A stretch of 35,074 bases of DNA from Saprospiraceae bacterium (GTDB lineage: Bacteria > Bacteroidota > Bacteroidia > Chitinophagales > Saprospiraceae), in NCBI GenBank assembly GCA_021739645.1, contig JAIPBL010000068.1, positions 1 to 35,074 on the forward strand. Direction: 5' to 3'. The first letter of the stretch is position 1. Every line of letters starts with the position of its first letter. Below, piece after piece: positions 2,143 through 34,824 of the stretch. Position numbers and translations under genes: made by a program. The notes under the pieces are model-generated. The model saw only the letters and a program-made list of their open reading frames with translations. It had not been told where the DNA came from and did not search any database.

Positions 2143-3336
2143 ATGACACATTTAGAATTCTATGAAGAACTTTTGGGTCTTCCGGGCCTTAAAATCAACG
2201 CTATCGAGCAGTTTCCCCGCAAAATAATCCTTCACTGCGAGACGCAGGTCGGTAACGGCATTTGTCCGCAATGCGGTGAGCCGACCGGTATTGTAAACCA
2301 ATATGACTCACGACGGGTCCGTGACCTTGACATCTCGGGCAAGGAAGTATGGCTGCACCTCCGTACCCGACAGTTCGTCTGCCATGTGTGCAACCGTTGT
2401 TTCAACGAATCGCCCGAGTGGATAATGCCCGGCAAGAGCTACACCAAGCGGCAGGCAAAATGGGTGTTCGAGATGTGCGCCAAACAGCCGTTCACGGAGG
2501 TCGGCGCCCTGCTCAACATGTGCCACAGGACCGTCGAGCGGCTGTTCTACGAACAGGCCGTGCAGCAGATAGACCTGCCCGCCCGCTATGCCAAGGTCAG
2601 GAAAATGGGCATCGACGAGATTGCCAACCGCAAGGGCAAGAACGATTATGTCTGTGTGCTGACCGACCTTGAGAGGGGCACCCAGTTGGATGTCCTCAAA
2701 GACCGGAAGAAGGAGACCTTACGTGCTCATTTTCAGGCACTTGGGGAAGGTTTCTGCGAACAGCTAGAGGTGGTCTCCTGTGACATTTGGCGCACCTACA
2801 TCCATGTTGCCAAGGAGTGCTTCCCCAATGCGGAGGTGGTCATAGACCGCTTCCATGTGGTGAAGGCGCTCAACGGGGTGCTGGACGATATCCGCAAGGG
2901 CCTGCGGCGGGAATTCAAGGACGCTCCCTGTTTCAAGGGCATCAAATGGAAGTTGTTCAAACGGCCCGAAAAATGTGACAGGGCCGAACTGGACCTCCTC
3001 TAGGTTGCGGTGGAAAAATCCTGGGTGCTCGGCGAGGTCTACGAAATGCGCAATGCCTTCAACTCCATGTTCGACATCTCCACCGATAAAAACCAATTGA
3101 TGGGGCAGTTGGACCACTGGTTGGCCCATGCGGCGGCCTTGGGCAACAAGCCCCTGGACCGGTTTGTAAAAACCCTCAAGAACTGGAAGTCAGAAATTGC
3201 GGCTTTTGCATCAACTGGCATTGCCAATGCTGCTACCGAGGGCCTGAACAACTACCCGAGGTACTTCAAGAGGATTTCTTTCGGTCTGCCAAATTTCGAG
3301 CATATGAGGATTCGAATACTGCTCGCTGCTTCCTAA
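2143..3336 (+). pseudogene. ISL3-family transposase interrupted by an in-frame TAG
   Basis: The frame would encode about 397 residues, normal for ISL3, but codon 287 is TAG (3001-3003); the same frame continues without shift to 3336. The N-terminal zinc ribbon (CPQCGEPTG and CHVCNRC) and a helix-turn-helix-like region (about 100-130) are followed by the DDE core: first D in MGIDEIANRKGKNDYVCVL, second D in VVSCDIWRTYIHV, and VVIDRFHVVKALN. The expected catalytic glutamate, in NAATEGLNNYPRYFKR, lies after the stop. The truncated product would therefore lack the third catalytic residue. Readthrough or a sequencing error at one base remain possible; a simple nonsense mutation is the best reading. 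Sharp terminal repeats suggest a recent arrival. Confidence 0.9.
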
Positions 3337-3360
3337 TCCACACTATTTGTCAAAGAACGA
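3337..3360 (-). repeat. right terminal inverted repeat of the ISL3 element
   Basis: Exact reverse complement of 2103-2126. It begins directly after the transposase stop codon (TAA at 3334-3336), a compact layout usual for insertion sequences. Confidence 0.93.
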
Positions 3361-17788: not shown

Positions 17789-17931
17789 TTTAAACCCCAA
17801 AATCGAATAAAAAACCAAACACACGAAACTGGCAAAGCTGATTTTTGAAACTCCCCAGATTACCCATCTTTTTTACCTTCGCAATTGGCAGGCAGGTGCT
17901 TGCTTTTTTAAAAAGCTCAAGTTGCGGATAG

Positions 17932-18080
17932 CGTCCCATGGGGACGGCATCTTTGTAGAAATTGAAAGAATGCAGGTACCCGTTCCATCGGAACGGCATC
18001 TTTTTGCCGAAATACCGTTCCGATGGAACGGCAAATCAGTGCTGTTTCTAAGGGCTACAAAGATTTTGTTCCTACGGAAC
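17932..18080. repeat. composite palindromic element B (four GTTCC/GTCCC units, nested inverted)
   Basis: Four units again in the order forward, forward, reverse, reverse: 17932-17946, 17980-17996, 18015-18031 and 18068-18080. The two inner units are exact reverse complements over 17 bases. The outer units share the tail ATCTTTGTAG (17949-17958, and inverted at 18055-18064). The element ends 40 bases before the start of the next gene, so it would lie in that gene's leader if transcription starts near a TACCTTCG at 17874-17881. Confidence 0.82.
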
Positions 18081-18120
18081 ATTTACCGCAACTTGAATTA
18101 CAAAACAAAACTTACCAACC

Positions 18121-21100
18121 ATGCGCCATCGCATCGCACTTGCCCTTGTAGGCATCCTCATCCTGTTGAGTCCCAGCCTTTTTGCACAAAAAAAGAAAGC
18201 CACTCCTGCACCACCAGCGGTGAAGTTCGAGGAGAAACTGTACCGCTCCCTCCAATGGCGAAACATCGGCCCATACCGGGGCGGACGCTCGGCGGCGGTG
18301 ACCGGGGTGCCGGGCAAACCCAACCTGTTCTACTTTGGCAGCACGGGTGGTGGCGTTTGGCGAACGACCGATGGCGGGCGCAGCTGGGAGAACCTCTCCG
18401 ATGGTTTCTTTGGCGGCTCTGTGGGGGCAGTGGCCGTCAGTGATAGCGACCCGAACGTCATCTACGTGGGCGGCGGCGAGGTTACCTTGCGGGGCAACGT
18501 CAGCTACGGCTACGGCGTCTGGAAATCGGAAGATGCTGGCAAAACATGGAAGTCAATGGGCCTGAAAAACAGCCGGCACATCCCCCGAATCCGCATTCAC
18601 CCCAACAACCCCGATGTGGTTTACGCTGCCGTGCTGGGCGATATTTTCACCAACAGCAGCGAGCGGGGTGTCTATCGCTCCATGGACGGCGGAAAAACCT
18701 GGGAGCGCACCCTTTTCGTCAACGACGAAGTAGGCGCCGTTGACCTCACTTTCGACCCCAACAACCCCCGCATCCTTTTCGCCTCTTCCTGGCGGGTGCG
18801 CCGCAGCCCGCACAGCCTCAGCAGCGGCGGCGATGGCTCCGGCCTCTGGAAAAGTACCGACAGCGGCAAGACCTGGGCCGATATCTCCCGCAGCGAGGGC
18901 TTGCCGAAGGATACGCTCGGCATCATCGGCGTCACCGTTTCGCCCGCCAACTCTGACCGGGTTTGGGCCATCATCGAAAGCAAAACGGGCGGCATCTTCC
19001 GCTCCGACGATGGCGGCAAAAAATGGCAGAAAATCAACGAAGACCGCAACCTCCGACAGCGGGCCTGGTACTACACCCGCATTTACGCTGACCCAAAAGA
19101 TGTGGATGTGGTGTATGTCGTGAACGTGAGTTACCACAAGTCGAAGGATGGCGGCAGGACTTTTACCGCCTCCAATGCCGCCCACGGCGACCACCACGAC
19201 ATGTGGATTGCCCCGGAAGACCCCAACCGCATCGTCATGGCCGACGACGGCGGCGCCTGCATCAGCTACGACGGCGGCGAAACCTGGAGCAGCTACCACA
19301 ACCAGCCCACTGCCCAGTTCTACCGAGTAACCACGGACAACCATTTCCCCTACCGCATCTATGTTGCGCAGCAAGACAATAGCACCCTGCGCATCCTGCA
19401 TCGAACGGGTGGCGGCAGCATTGGCGAAGACGACTGGGAATCCACGGCGGGCGGCGAAAGCGGCCACATCGCTGTGGACCCGCTGAACAACGACATCGTG
19501 TACGGCGGCAGCTACAGCGGCCTGCTGGAGCGCATGGACCACCGCACCCGCATCCAGCGCTCCATCGACGTTTGGCCGGACGACCCCATCGGCCACGGTG
19601 CCGAGGACAGCAAGTACCGTTTCCAGTGGAACTTCCCGCTGTTCTTCTCGCCGCACGACCCGAAGAAACTTTATGCCTGCTCCCAGCACCTGCACGTGAC
19701 CACCAACGAGGGGCAAAGCTGGCGCACCATCAGCCCCGACCTGACCCGCAACGACAAGTCGAAGCAGCAGGCATCTGGCGGCCCCATTACGAAGGACAAC
19801 ACAGGCGTGGAGGTTTATTGCACCATTTTCGCAGCGGCGGAAAGCCCACGGGTGAAGGATTTGCTTTGGGTCGGTAGCGATGATGGCCTGGTGAACATCA
19901 GCCGTGACGGTGGTGCCAGTTGGCAAAACGTGACGCCCCCCACCCTACCCGAATGGACGATGGTGAACGCCATCGAACCCAGCCCTTTCGAAGATGGCGG
20001 CTGCTACTTTGCTGCCACTTCTTACAAGTCGGGCGATTACCAACCGCTTCTTTTTAAGACAAATGATTACGGTAAAACTTGGGTGAAAATCACGAACGGC
20101 ATCGCTAACGACCATTTCACAAGGGTGGTGCGCTGCGACCCCAAGCGCCGTGGCCTCCTCTATGCCGGCACGGAGAGCGGCATGTACCTGAGTTTTGATG
20201 ACGGGGCAAACTGGCAGCCGTTCCAACTGAACCTGCCCATCGTGCCCATCACCGACCTGGCGGTGAAGAACGACAACCTCATTGCAGCCACACAGGGCCG
20301 CAGCATCTGGATGATTGACGACCTGACCGTGCTGCACCAGCTCAACGACGATGTTGGGAAGAAAACCACGCACCTCTACCGCCCGATGGACAGCTACCGC
20401 ACGGACGGCTATCAGTCCAGAAGGCCAAACGGTGAGGGAACGAACCACCCCGGCGGCGTGACGGTGCATTTTATTTTGCCAAAATTGGATACGGCAAAAA
20501 CAGTGGTGAAACTGGCTTTTTTGGAAAAAGACGGCGATGTGATTCGGGAGTTTTCCACCAAACCAAAGGACAAAAAGGACAAACTGGTGGTGAAGGACAG
20601 CGCCCAAACTTTCAACTGGAACATTCGCTACCCCGATGCCAAAACCGTGGACGGCATGATACTTTGGTGGGCCCAAACCAGCGGACCAAGGGCCATGCCG
20701 GGTGAATATCGGGTGCGCCTAACGGTGGGCGACGATGCGCCGATGGAGCAACCGTTCCGCATCCTGAAAGACCCCCGCTCCACCAGCACCGACGCCGATT
20801 TTCAGCGGCAGTTCGAGTTCCTGATGGGTGTGCGGGACAAGATGACGGAGGCGCACCAGGCCATCCTCGACATTCGGGATGTGCGGGGCCAACTGAAGGC
20901 TTTCACCAGCCGCCTCGACAAGGACAGCACCGAACTAAAACCCTTGCTCGACCTTGCGAAGCAAATGGACAGCACCATGACCGTGGTGGAGGAACAGCTT
21001 TACCAAACAAAAAACCGCAGCGGCCAAGACCCGCTCAACTTCCCCATCCGCCTGACTAACAAACTGGGCCACGTGGCGGCCCTGACCTACGGCGACTTTC

Positions 21101-26859: not shown

Positions 26860-26946
26860 AGTTGGCAGTTCGACAGTTGGGAGTGGGGAGGCAGTGGAAA
26901 GGTAGAAGGCCCTGGCTGCCCACTGCCAACTGTCGAACTGCCAACT
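26860..26946. repeat. long inverted repeat of the AGTTGGCAGTTCGACAGTT family
   Basis: A perfect 21-bp inverted repeat (26860-26880 and 26926-26946) that continues inward as an imperfect stem (AGTGGG/CCCACT and further). It fills nearly the whole 98-base gap between rbfA and the META lipoprotein gene, both on the minus strand, and abuts the rbfA stop. Related units lie near 32209-32235 and inside priA (33553-33671). Confidence 0.9.
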
Positions 26947-32132: not shown

Positions 32133-32238
32133 TTCATGCCCAAAATCGAACGCTTAGGATTTGCCCCACAGTCTTTTGATTTTGGAAAAAATGGCCAAAA
32201 GCAGATACCGACTGCACACTGTCAAACTGCCAACTATT

Positions 32239-34824
32239 TTACCCCGGATCCACATCCACGTTCACCCGCACCGTCGAAAATCCTTCCGTCTGCTGCATTA
32301 CCCTCGTCGCTTCACCAATTAAGTCTTTCGTGAGTTTCCAAAGATTGGGATTTCGCTCCATTTTTATCAAAATATCCAACAAATAATACTCCCGAACCCT
32401 GCCCACGGAGGGAACTGTCGGCCCGAGCAGCCGCTTGCCGAGCTTGCTTTTCAGCACCTGCACAAAATATTTAGAGCCCCGGTTCAGCACATCCGGCTTT
32501 TTGTGCTTCAAGGTTATTTTTATCAAACGGCTGAACGGCGGGTACTCGAACGCCTTGCGCTCCATGATTTCCCGTTCGTAAAATTCCTGAAAATCGTTGT
32601 CAATCACTTCCTTGATGACCGGGTGCGATGTGTTCATTGCCTGCACGATGACCTTACCCCGCTTATCCCGGCGACCAGCCCGCCCAGCCACCTGTGTGAT
32701 GAGTTGGAAGCCCCGCTCCCCCGACCGAAAATCGGGGAACTGCAACAATTGGTCGGCACTAACTACCCCAACTATGCTCACGTTCTCGAAGTCCAAGCCT
32801 TTCGTCACCATCTGTGTGCCCACCAAAATGTCGAGCCGCCGCTCCTCAAAGTCGTTGATGATGCGGGCATGGGCGTCTTTCGTGCGCACGGTGTCGTAGT
32901 CCATGCGGCCGATGTTGGCGTCGGGCAGGTAGATTTTTAGTTCGTCCTCGATTTTTTGCGTACCAAAGCCCTGCAAATTCAGCTCGTGGCTGCCGCAAGC
33001 TGGGCAGGTTTTGGCGAGTTCTTGCTGGTAGCCGCAGTAGTGGCACTGGAGGTTGTTTCGGAACTTGTGGTAAGTCAGACTCACGTCGCAATGGATGCAC
33101 TCCGAGTGCCAGCCACAGGTGTTGCAGCGCAGGGTGGGCGCATAACCACGGCGGTTTTGGAACAAAATGGCCTGCTCGCCCTTGGCCAGCGCCGTCTTCA
33201 GTTCCTCCACCAAAACACTGGTGAAATGACCCTGTAATTTTCGCTGCTTAGCCTCCAGCTTCGCATCCACCACCACGATTTCTGGCATCTGGATGCCGCC
33301 GAACCGCTCCGTCATTTCCACCAAACCGTACTTGCCACTGCGGGCATTGTGGTAGGTTTCGAGGGAAGGCGTGGCCGTACCGAGCACCACTTTTGCGCCG
33401 TGCAGGTGCGCCAAATAAATGGCTGCATCCCGCCCCTGGTAGCGGGGAGCCGGGTCGTTTTGCTTGTAGGAAGTATCGTGTTCCTCGTCCACGATGACCA
33501 GGCCGAGGTTGGTAAAAGGGAGAAAAAGTGCAGACCGAGCGCCGAGGATGCAAGTTGGCAGCTCTTCCTCAGTTGGCAGTTGGCAGTCGGTGGCTGCTGC
33601 CACTGTCTGACTGCCAACTGCCAACTGTCGAACTGTCGAACTATTTTCCCCACTGTCGAACTGTCGAACTTTATTCCAAATCTCCACCCGTTCATTGTTC
33701 GTAATCCGATGGTGGTAAACCGTCACCGCATCGCCCAGTGTTTTTTGCAAACGGCTGATAATCTGCGTGGTAAGTGCCACTTCTGGCAGCAGGTACAGCA
33801 CCTGTTCACCACGAGCCATGGCCTTCTGCATGAGTTCGAGATAGACCCGGGTCTTGCCGCTGCCCGTTACGCCATGCAGCAGCACGGTGTTTTTCTCTTC
33901 GGTAAAATGGTTGCCAATTTCCTCCAAAGCCCTTGTTTGTTGCGGAGCAAGTTCATCGGCTTCCGTCACCTCGTCCTCGTAGCCACCGAGGCGGCTGACC
34001 TCCCGTTCGTACAGTTCGAAGATGCCTTTTTTCGCCAGCGAATTGAGTACCGAGGAGTCCACGCTGGCTTTTTTGTACAATTCTGAGCGCAGGATGCCGC
34101 CGTCCTTGGAAGGCTGCTCTCGGGTCAATTGGATGAAGGCCATCAGCGCCTCGGTCTGCCGCTGTGCCTTGGCCACGAGGTTAAAAGCTTGCGCCAACTG
34201 CTTCGGTTCGGAGCGGTAAGGCTCGGCAAGGCGGACGCAAGAAACCTTTTTTGGGGCGTATTTTTCCTCCATTTCCTCGTAGAGGTAAATCACCTTTTTG
34301 TCCAACAGGCCCTTGATGACCTGGTAAATGGTTTTTTGGTTCAAAATCTTGCGCACATCATCAATCGTGATGGTCTCCTGGATGCTGAGTGCTTCCGCAA
34401 TGAGGTACTCCTTGTCGTTCAGACCAGTGAAACTGCCATCATAAAGCGGGCTAAGCACCAATCGGCGCTCGCTGGCCAGCTTGAGGTTGGCGGGCAAGGC
34501 AGCTTCCATCACTTCGCCGAGGGAACAGCAGTAGTATTCGGCGAGCCAATGCCAAAACTGGAGCGTCTTTTCGTTCAGCACCGGTTCCTCGTCAATGACG
34601 GAGAGGATGCTCTTGAACTTGTGCGCAGGCACTTCATGGTGCAGCCTCGACACCAGCCCTGCGTAACGCTTGTTACCCCCAAACTCCACCTCCACCCGCA
34701 AGCCAGGGCATACGGCAGCCACCAACTCCTCCGGCACAGCGTAGGTGTAGGGCTTGGGCACGGCCAGTGGCAGTATCACTTCGGCGAAAATGCCGTGGGC
34801 GGGTACGGGATGGTAGGTTTCCAA
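32239..34824 (-). CDS. priA: primosomal protein N' (replication restart helicase PriA) with an in-frame repeat insertion
   Basis: 861 residues. PriA recognises stalled forks, unwinds DNA 3' to 5' and loads the replicative helicase. The N-terminal 3'-DNA-binding domain begins FAEVILPLAVPKPYTYAVPE; the helicase core has VLLHGVTGSGKTRVYLEL (Walker A), VIVDEEHDTSYKQND (DEEH) and QVAGRAGRRDKRGKV (motif VI). Two zinc sites appear as CNTCGWHSECIHC and CHYCGYQQE...CPACGSHE. The start is TTG at 34824; no ATG is available in frame upstream. Residues about 386-423, between EIWNKV and CILGARSALFLPF, are encoded by a repeat also found between genes. Without them the length is about 823, normal for the family. 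The frame is not broken. Confidence 0.95.
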   Translation of the reverse strand: METYHPVPAHGIFAEVILPLAVPKPYTYAVPEELVAAVCPGLRVEVEFGGNKRYAGLVSRLHHEVPAHKFKSILSVIDEEPVLNEKTLQFWHWLAEYYCCSLGEVMEAALPANLKLASERRLVLSPLYDGSFTGLNDKEYLIAEALSIQETITIDDVRKILNQKTIYQVIKGLLDKKVIYLYEEMEEKYAPKKVSCVRLAEPYRSEPKQLAQAFNLVAKAQRQTEALMAFIQLTREQPSKDGGILRSELYKKASVDSSVLNSLAKKGIFELYEREVSRLGGYEDEVTEADELAPQQTRALEEIGNHFTEEKNTVLLHGVTGSGKTRVYLELMQKAMARGEQVLYLLPEVALTTQIISRLQKTLGDAVTVYHHRITNNERVEIWNKVRQFDSGENSSTVRQLAVGSQTVAAATDCQLPTEEELPTCILGARSALFLPFTNLGLVIVDEEHDTSYKQNDPAPRYQGRDAAIYLAHLHGAKVVLGTATPSLETYHNARSGKYGLVEMTERFGGIQMPEIVVVDAKLEAKQRKLQGHFTSVLVEELKTALAKGEQAILFQNRRGYAPTLRCNTCGWHSECIHCDVSLTYHKFRNNLQCHYCGYQQELAKTCPACGSHELNLQGFGTQKIEDELKIYLPDANIGRMDYDTVRTKDAHARIINDFEERRLDILVGTQMVTKGLDFENVSIVGVVSADQLLQFPDFRSGERGFQLITQVAGRAGRRDKRGKVIVQAMNTSHPVIKEVIDNDFQEFYEREIMERKAFEYPPFSRLIKITLKHKKPDVLNRGSKYFVQVLKSKLGKRLLGPTVPSVGRVREYYLLDILIKMERNPNLWKLTKDLIGEATRVMQQTEGFSTVRVNVDVDPG
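33553..33671. repeat. AGTTGGCAGTT/GTTCGACAG palindromic repeat inside priA
   Basis: Contains a perfect 19-bp inverted repeat (33570-33588 and 33609-33627) with a 20-base loop that holds a further 5-bp stem (GTGGC/GCCAC), plus flanking tandem GTCGAACT units at 33628-33670. It is of the same family as 26860-26946 and 32216-32235. Its length keeps the priA frame, and it has no stop in that frame. Confidence 0.88.

Follow-up and report, generated by a model that had tools for sequence, protein, structure and literature searches.

STRR of cyanobacteria are families of heptanucleotide repeats; they form plain direct arrays and are not known to have inverted partners. Heptamers of the TAACTGA type are reported from Beggiatoaceae, Cyanobacteria and five Bacteroidetes (PMC4679880), and GGGAATC heptamers from Xanthomonas and Nostoc, most GGGAATC repeats having the same flanking genes in both of two Xanthomonas species but varying in length and sequence (PMC4692102). 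Rickettsia palindromic elements (105-146 bp) occur between genes as well as in frame within genes for conserved proteins, where they are apparently tolerated (PMC2229807); Wolbachia palindromic elements, cited within the same paper, are likened here by name alone. Borg tandem repeats inside ORFs produce disordered protein stretches and have unit lengths that are all divisible by three (PMC9879509); the main text of that report contains no occurrence of "palindrom". REP/REPIN sequences are short dispersed palindromes of bacterial genomes, hairpins tagged with GTAG or CGTC and served by a cognate RAYT.

The repeats described here come from a Saprospiraceae genome of 6.16 Mb (G000), one contig of which, 35,074 nucleotides long, is the window. 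A sequence-only reading of the window had likened a repeat in priA to Rickettsia palindromic elements. The likeness holds for the effect, since both are palindromic, intergenic and also in frame in conserved proteins. It does not extend to sequence or build: the arms consist of 7- or 8-base tandem units, spacers are unlike, families are many and species differ at one and the same site, instead of sharing a defined 105-146 bp element with terminal inverted repeats that is alike between copies. With the heptanucleotide families the repeats share dispersed, mostly intergenic heptamer arrays, but those reports, in the parts drawn on here, describe one or few units and intergenic copies, whereas palindromic pairs, many families and copies in housekeeping ORFs are present here. 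As in Borgs, repeats inside ORFs yield disordered stretches; the units have 7 or 8 bases, however, and divisibility by three applies to the complete insert alone. Unlike REP/REPIN, they are built of tandem units and have in-ORF copies; no GTAG or CGTC tag was noticed by eye in the arrays inspected, and Y1_Tnp genes are present with no RAYT linked. As regards MITEs, which have terminal inverted repeats and a target site duplication, inverted arms are present here and the empty priA sites are too diverged to reveal a duplication. On the best reading, the repeats would act like Rickettsia palindromic elements but use heptamers of the cyanobacterial kind. Heptamer arrays as such are known from the five Bacteroidetes mentioned above. 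Searches of open-access literature, with subscription papers mostly outside their reach, yielded no report of in-frame heptamer palindromes in this phylum among the results listed.

A repeat-coded loop in PriA

The following features of the window are relevant here:

32239-34824, minus strand: priA, replication restart helicase, 861 aa, TTG start (TIGR00595, 578.9 bits, cut-off 230.35)
33553-33666, minus strand: repeat-coded insert, residues 387-424 (alignment of 30 PriA and predicted disorder)
33609-33627, minus strand: hairpin 5' arm on the coding strand, TTGGCAG units
33570-33588, minus strand: hairpin 3' arm on the coding strand, CTGCCAA units
33623-33642, minus strand: octamer tandem, CGACAGTT units
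33652-33670, minus strand: second octamer tandem, TCGACAGT units
26860-26946, no strand: intergenic palindrome (inverted repeat) beside rbfA, same family as the priA insert
32208-32236, no strand: degenerate half copy just past the priA stop

The priA product carries the Pfam domains PriA_3primeBD, ResIII, Zn_ribbon_PriA, Helicase_C and PriA_C, and is encoded by a single open frame in which Walker A (GSGKT) and DEEH are unbroken, as the sequence-only reading had stated. The insert is a palindrome built from TTGGCAG and TTCGACAG units. The perfect 19-bp inverted repeat (CAGTTGGCAGTTGGCAGTC at 33570-33588 versus GACTGCCAACTGCCAACTG at 33609-33627) and the GTCGAACT tandems (33623-33642 and 33652-33670) were found exactly as described, and RNA folding of the insert gives z = -5.9. 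The predicted size of about 38 residues was right, and the position is one residue off (387-424 rather than 386-423). The insert is flanked by WNKV and CILGARS and stands where, in an alignment of 30 PriA sequences, family members have a short turn of about LxGKP. The claim that the flanking blocks are nearly adjacent in known PriA proteins is borne out by the solved structure 4nl4, in which the counterparts of query residues 388 and 425 are chain residues 309 and 314. An AlphaFold model on the 30-PriA alignment (mean pLDDT 78.6) predicts no secondary structure for residues 391-420 (pLDDT <50), placing this disordered stretch between a helix (376-390) and a strand (425-428).

The copy in the gap after rbfA, correctly assigned to the same family, contains a 35-nt inverted repeat with 91% complementarity. 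The unit reported next to the priA stop is present, but only as a degenerate half copy; half copies at this place are clearer in G008 and G005 than in G000. The 12-mer CAGTTSGRCAGT (at most one mismatch) has seven matches in the window, a number reached in 0/100 shuffles (mean 0.56). A repeat family known from intergenic gaps of this genome thus has a copy in frame within priA, at a position where other PriA proteins are short, and the earlier interpretation is partly supported.

Two further repeats were seen in the window. A 29-nt inverted repeat (2103-2131 and 3332-3360, 97%, 1200 bases apart) flanks an ORF pair and could represent element ends. Another inverted repeat, of 42 nt (74%) and itself containing direct and inverted repeats, occupies 17917-18096, just before the ORF at 18121.

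Dispersed arrays and their place in ORFs

In 831 kb of G000, 67 period-7 and 31 period-8 runs were counted, compared with 1 and 2 in a control consisting of one copy shuffled in 3-base blocks. Dispersed 7-base tandem arrays of the STRR type are therefore well above chance (67 vs 1). Across the whole genome, CAGTTGGCAGTTGGCAGT (at most three mismatches) has 142+123 matches and its reversed control 16+19, overlapping matches within one array being tallied separately. With at most one mismatch it occurs in 13/14 genomes of the genus, sparsely in G001, G004 and G007 (1, 3 and 2 matches) and not at all in G010; it is also found in other genera (407 matches in G036, 17 in G021), giving 19/60 genomes in total. 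The reversed control is not silent (30 matches in G002, 18 in G006, 68 in G010, 290 in G028), because some genomes own heptamer families of that kind. The TGACGGT units of this control are abundant in G028 and G010 and form families of their own there.

The assumption of one repeat family proved too simple, since the genome holds many and a given site is occupied by different ones in related species. In 851 kb of G000 the commonest unit class, TTGGCAG, accounts for 17/98 arrays among many classes. The top seven classes comprise 51 of the 98 arrays, indicating that units are copied between loci. Many G000 arrays resemble palindrome arms: for 31/98, against a control value of 0.7, an exact inverted partner lies no more than 120 bp away, and those without one may be half or decayed copies. 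Polarity is consistent over the sampled genomes, the 5' arm being G-rich in 22/25 and the 3' arm C-rich in 36/39 cases, counts in which both arms of one palindrome may be included. The first 140 bases of contigs C49 and C69 consist of about 20 head-to-tail TTGGCAG units (L300, L301). Long arrays of this unit seem to break the assembly at these contig starts, and no mobile gene was noticed in the first 600 bases of either.

The sequence-only reading had proposed counting copies inside ORFs genome-wide. Of 86 merged arrays in the 831 kb of G000, 30 lie within ORFs at a depth of 60 nt or more and 28 at a depth of 90 nt or more, although ORFs make up about 91% of the DNA; nine of these ORFs are judged to be spurious, terminally extended or chance matches. 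Pfam covered 26/27 listed ORFs; the excluded one crosses two stretches. In-ORF units are mostly free of stop codons in the coding direction; the comparison of stop-free coding-strand units (24/28) with intergenic strands (54/82) is borderline (p 0.055) and excludes nine ORFs judged by eye to be spurious, terminally extended or chance. In-ORF arrays also occur in G003, G006, G008 and G012, in stretches partly picked for the genes under test. G036, a TTGGCAG-rich genome of another genus, has 0/12 arrays in ORFs (55 kb) versus 28/86 in G000 (p 0.017). Five pooled genus genomes give 54/148 (p 0.009), a biased pool in which the G003, G008 and G012 stretches were fetched for genes under test and the G000 stretches came from contigs with TTGGCAG hits.

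Different units at the same sites

Outside the genus, 18/18 rows of the PriA alignment lack a repeat insert, a few having a few extra residues, and the Walker A-to-GARS spacing is uniformly short, at 87 residues, in all 12 parsed of 17 family loci. The loop is lengthened in 14/14 genus genomes, so the 38-residue block is not unique to this species. By eye, eight genomes have clear tandem units in it (G000, G005, G006, G008, G010, G011, G012, G013), two have decayed units (G003, G009), and four have a longer loop without visible repeats (G001, G002, G004, G007). Since the eight with clear units belong to different species, an assembly artefact is unlikely. Across nine species the loop measures 54-240 nt; the spacers are not alike, and units vary from site to site. 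The priA loop of G006 has GGTGGAC and ACCAATC units, though this species lies within the TTGGCAG clade (G000, G008, G003, G011, G005). A PriA tree calculated without the insert joins it to G011 and G005 (100/99) inside that clade, so its change of units is derived.

PriA loop length at this site varies across Bacteroidota. Among the best 80 of 584 relatives, 66 loci were parsed and loops of at least 14 residues inspected; besides the congener L124, the only array cases are L140 and L149, two distant Bacteroidota MAGs with 46-47% identical PriA. In both, arrays of a third family (AAAGTTC) occupy this loop, that of L140 being palindromic, and further arrays precede Walker A, so that AAAGTT-type heptamers are arrayed in frame at two places in PriA (L140 3939-4420; L149). 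From these arrays, the loop has probably been occupied at least twice, the case of the window genus being counted.

The difference between related species is not confined to priA. In 6/6 genes (priA, mutY, lnt, a P-type ATPase, metG and ccoG) and in the rbfA gap, related species have different units at the same site; these loci were chosen for having an array in at least one species and are not a rate sample. In-frame insertion into genes for conserved proteins, as in Rickettsia palindromic elements, is thus seen in six genes across species. A repeat-written loop is present in lnt of eight species, seven with clear units and the eighth (G011) irregular; the units, read by eye, are AACCGTC, AAATCGT, AAACCTG, AATCGTC, AATCCGC, AATCCTTC and AAATCCG, some of them one base apart. 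At one mutY site, AATTCCCC, AATCCGC and AAATCCG types are distributed among G000, G005, G006, G008 and G012, with another type in G003. This loop is short in G001, G002, G004, G007, G009 and G010 and shows no visible repeat in G011; G013 has only a C-terminal piece of mutY. The P-type ATPase differs in units between species at three sites. In metG (20 loci, 16 entered, 7 read), ATCCCTC-type units occur in four species and ACCAATC in G000, while ccoG (14 entered, 13 read) has TTGGCAG, AACAGCC and AGTCC-type units. The rbfA gap contains TTGGCAG in G000 and G006, an ATTTACG-type palindrome in G008 and a weaker other type in G003. At ATPase site 3 of G008 and in metG of G003 the arrays are mosaics in which unlike families meet at sharp borders.

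Loops of PriA, MutY, Lnt, MetG and CcoG with unlike peptides in related species constitute natural replicates, which can be used to measure which of the loops accept an insert and in what way palindromes are spread and homogenised. Annotators should be aware that repeat-coded loops are not conserved features.

Possible explanations for the unit differences

The differences at orthologous sites point to restless, tolerated repeat DNA that repeatedly rewrites the same loops in one genus. The explanation we consider probable, with considerable doubt remaining, is that dispersing hairpin repeats are tolerated in loops and continue to be replaced at occupied sites. Palindromes whose 5' arm is G-rich and whose 3' arm is C-rich, both built of tandem units of 7 or 8 bases, would multiply within genomes of the genus and would mostly land or survive between genes; in-frame copies that fall in loops would be tolerated. 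In an occupied loop, old units may be replaced by further insertion or by patchwise copying from other families, and slippage together with copying between both arms would keep each palindrome homogeneous. Host proteins would retain their core and acquire a disordered loop, a disorder predicted for PriA alone. Copying between loci is required by the recurrence of few families at many loci, and the mosaics with sharp borders suggest that replacement is piecewise. Neutral tolerance, which we infer from location in loops, disorder and in-frame total length, would explain the coding copies; as the units have 7 or 8 bases, a single-unit slip would break the frame. Tolerance accounts for the observations; the gain of function that the word "domesticated" would imply is not called for.

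Agreement between arms is consistent with copying between them. The priA arms agree more within than between species (18.1 v 11.7, permutation p 0.0001, n=9, relatedness uncorrected), and four of the nine (G003, G005, G006, G012) lack matching arms. The effect is marginal in mutY (n=5, p 0.049, relatedness uncorrected, G012 entered but unparsed) and absent at ATPase site 1 (n=4, p 0.25). What counts against dispersing, tolerated hairpins is that no insertion boundary, target duplication or transposase was linked to the repeats; 25/30 genomes have Y1 transposases, with or without the TTGGCAG repeat. More tentatively, turnover may be cassette-like, hairpins from a genome-wide pool repeatedly taking each other's place, one arm at a time, at fixed positions in the loops of housekeeping proteins while the genes stay open. 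If so, orthologous loops would be rewritten with unrelated peptides between related species.

An unlikely but serious alternative is drift in situ, with one ancestral array per site changing by fast slippage and point mutation and no copying between loci. It is in keeping with the lnt units AACCGTC and AATCGTC, which are one base apart like steps of a series, and with priA of G012, in which GGCAGAC adjoins GGTGGAC. A shared form of TTG plus purines also speaks for it, at 3.01 bits vs 2.66 for heptamers (sd 0.15, maximum 3.03 in 30 shuffles) and 3.34 vs 2.85 for octamers (sd 0.16, maximum 3.37). As a common form across unit classes this is weak and within the range of the 30 shuffles, and it leaves room for gradual drift. 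Against drift stand the recurrence of the same few families, both at many loci within one genome and across several species, and the sharp borders between unlike families in the mosaics.

That the repeats are functional, coding copies being kept as mRNA or DNA hairpins or as phase-variable frame switches, is improbable. The strong fold of the priA insert and the persistence of palindromy in several species while units change would fit, as would mutY of G003 (L212), whose frame is broken at the repeat array with one TGA, as expected of a slipping repeat, and which has intact relatives. The gene may be truly defective here, or the assembly may be wrong. Loss of MutY would give a mutator, which makes a slipping repeat in this gene notable. 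The host genes are unrelated to one another, however, the matching arm is lost in some species, and no PriA or Lnt match among those listed has an internal stop. A terminator role was also considered; array gaps are convergent in 21/102 cases versus 140/692 of gaps, and this lack of bias towards convergent pairs gives no sign of it.

Least probable is an ordinary lengthened PriA loop of the genus with a repeat look due to low-complexity drift, which would suit the variable loop length in Bacteroidota and the four genomes without visible repeats, but is contradicted for G000, where the DNA resembles repeats found between genes and has inverted arms, and runs against the clear tandem units of several kinds in eight species.
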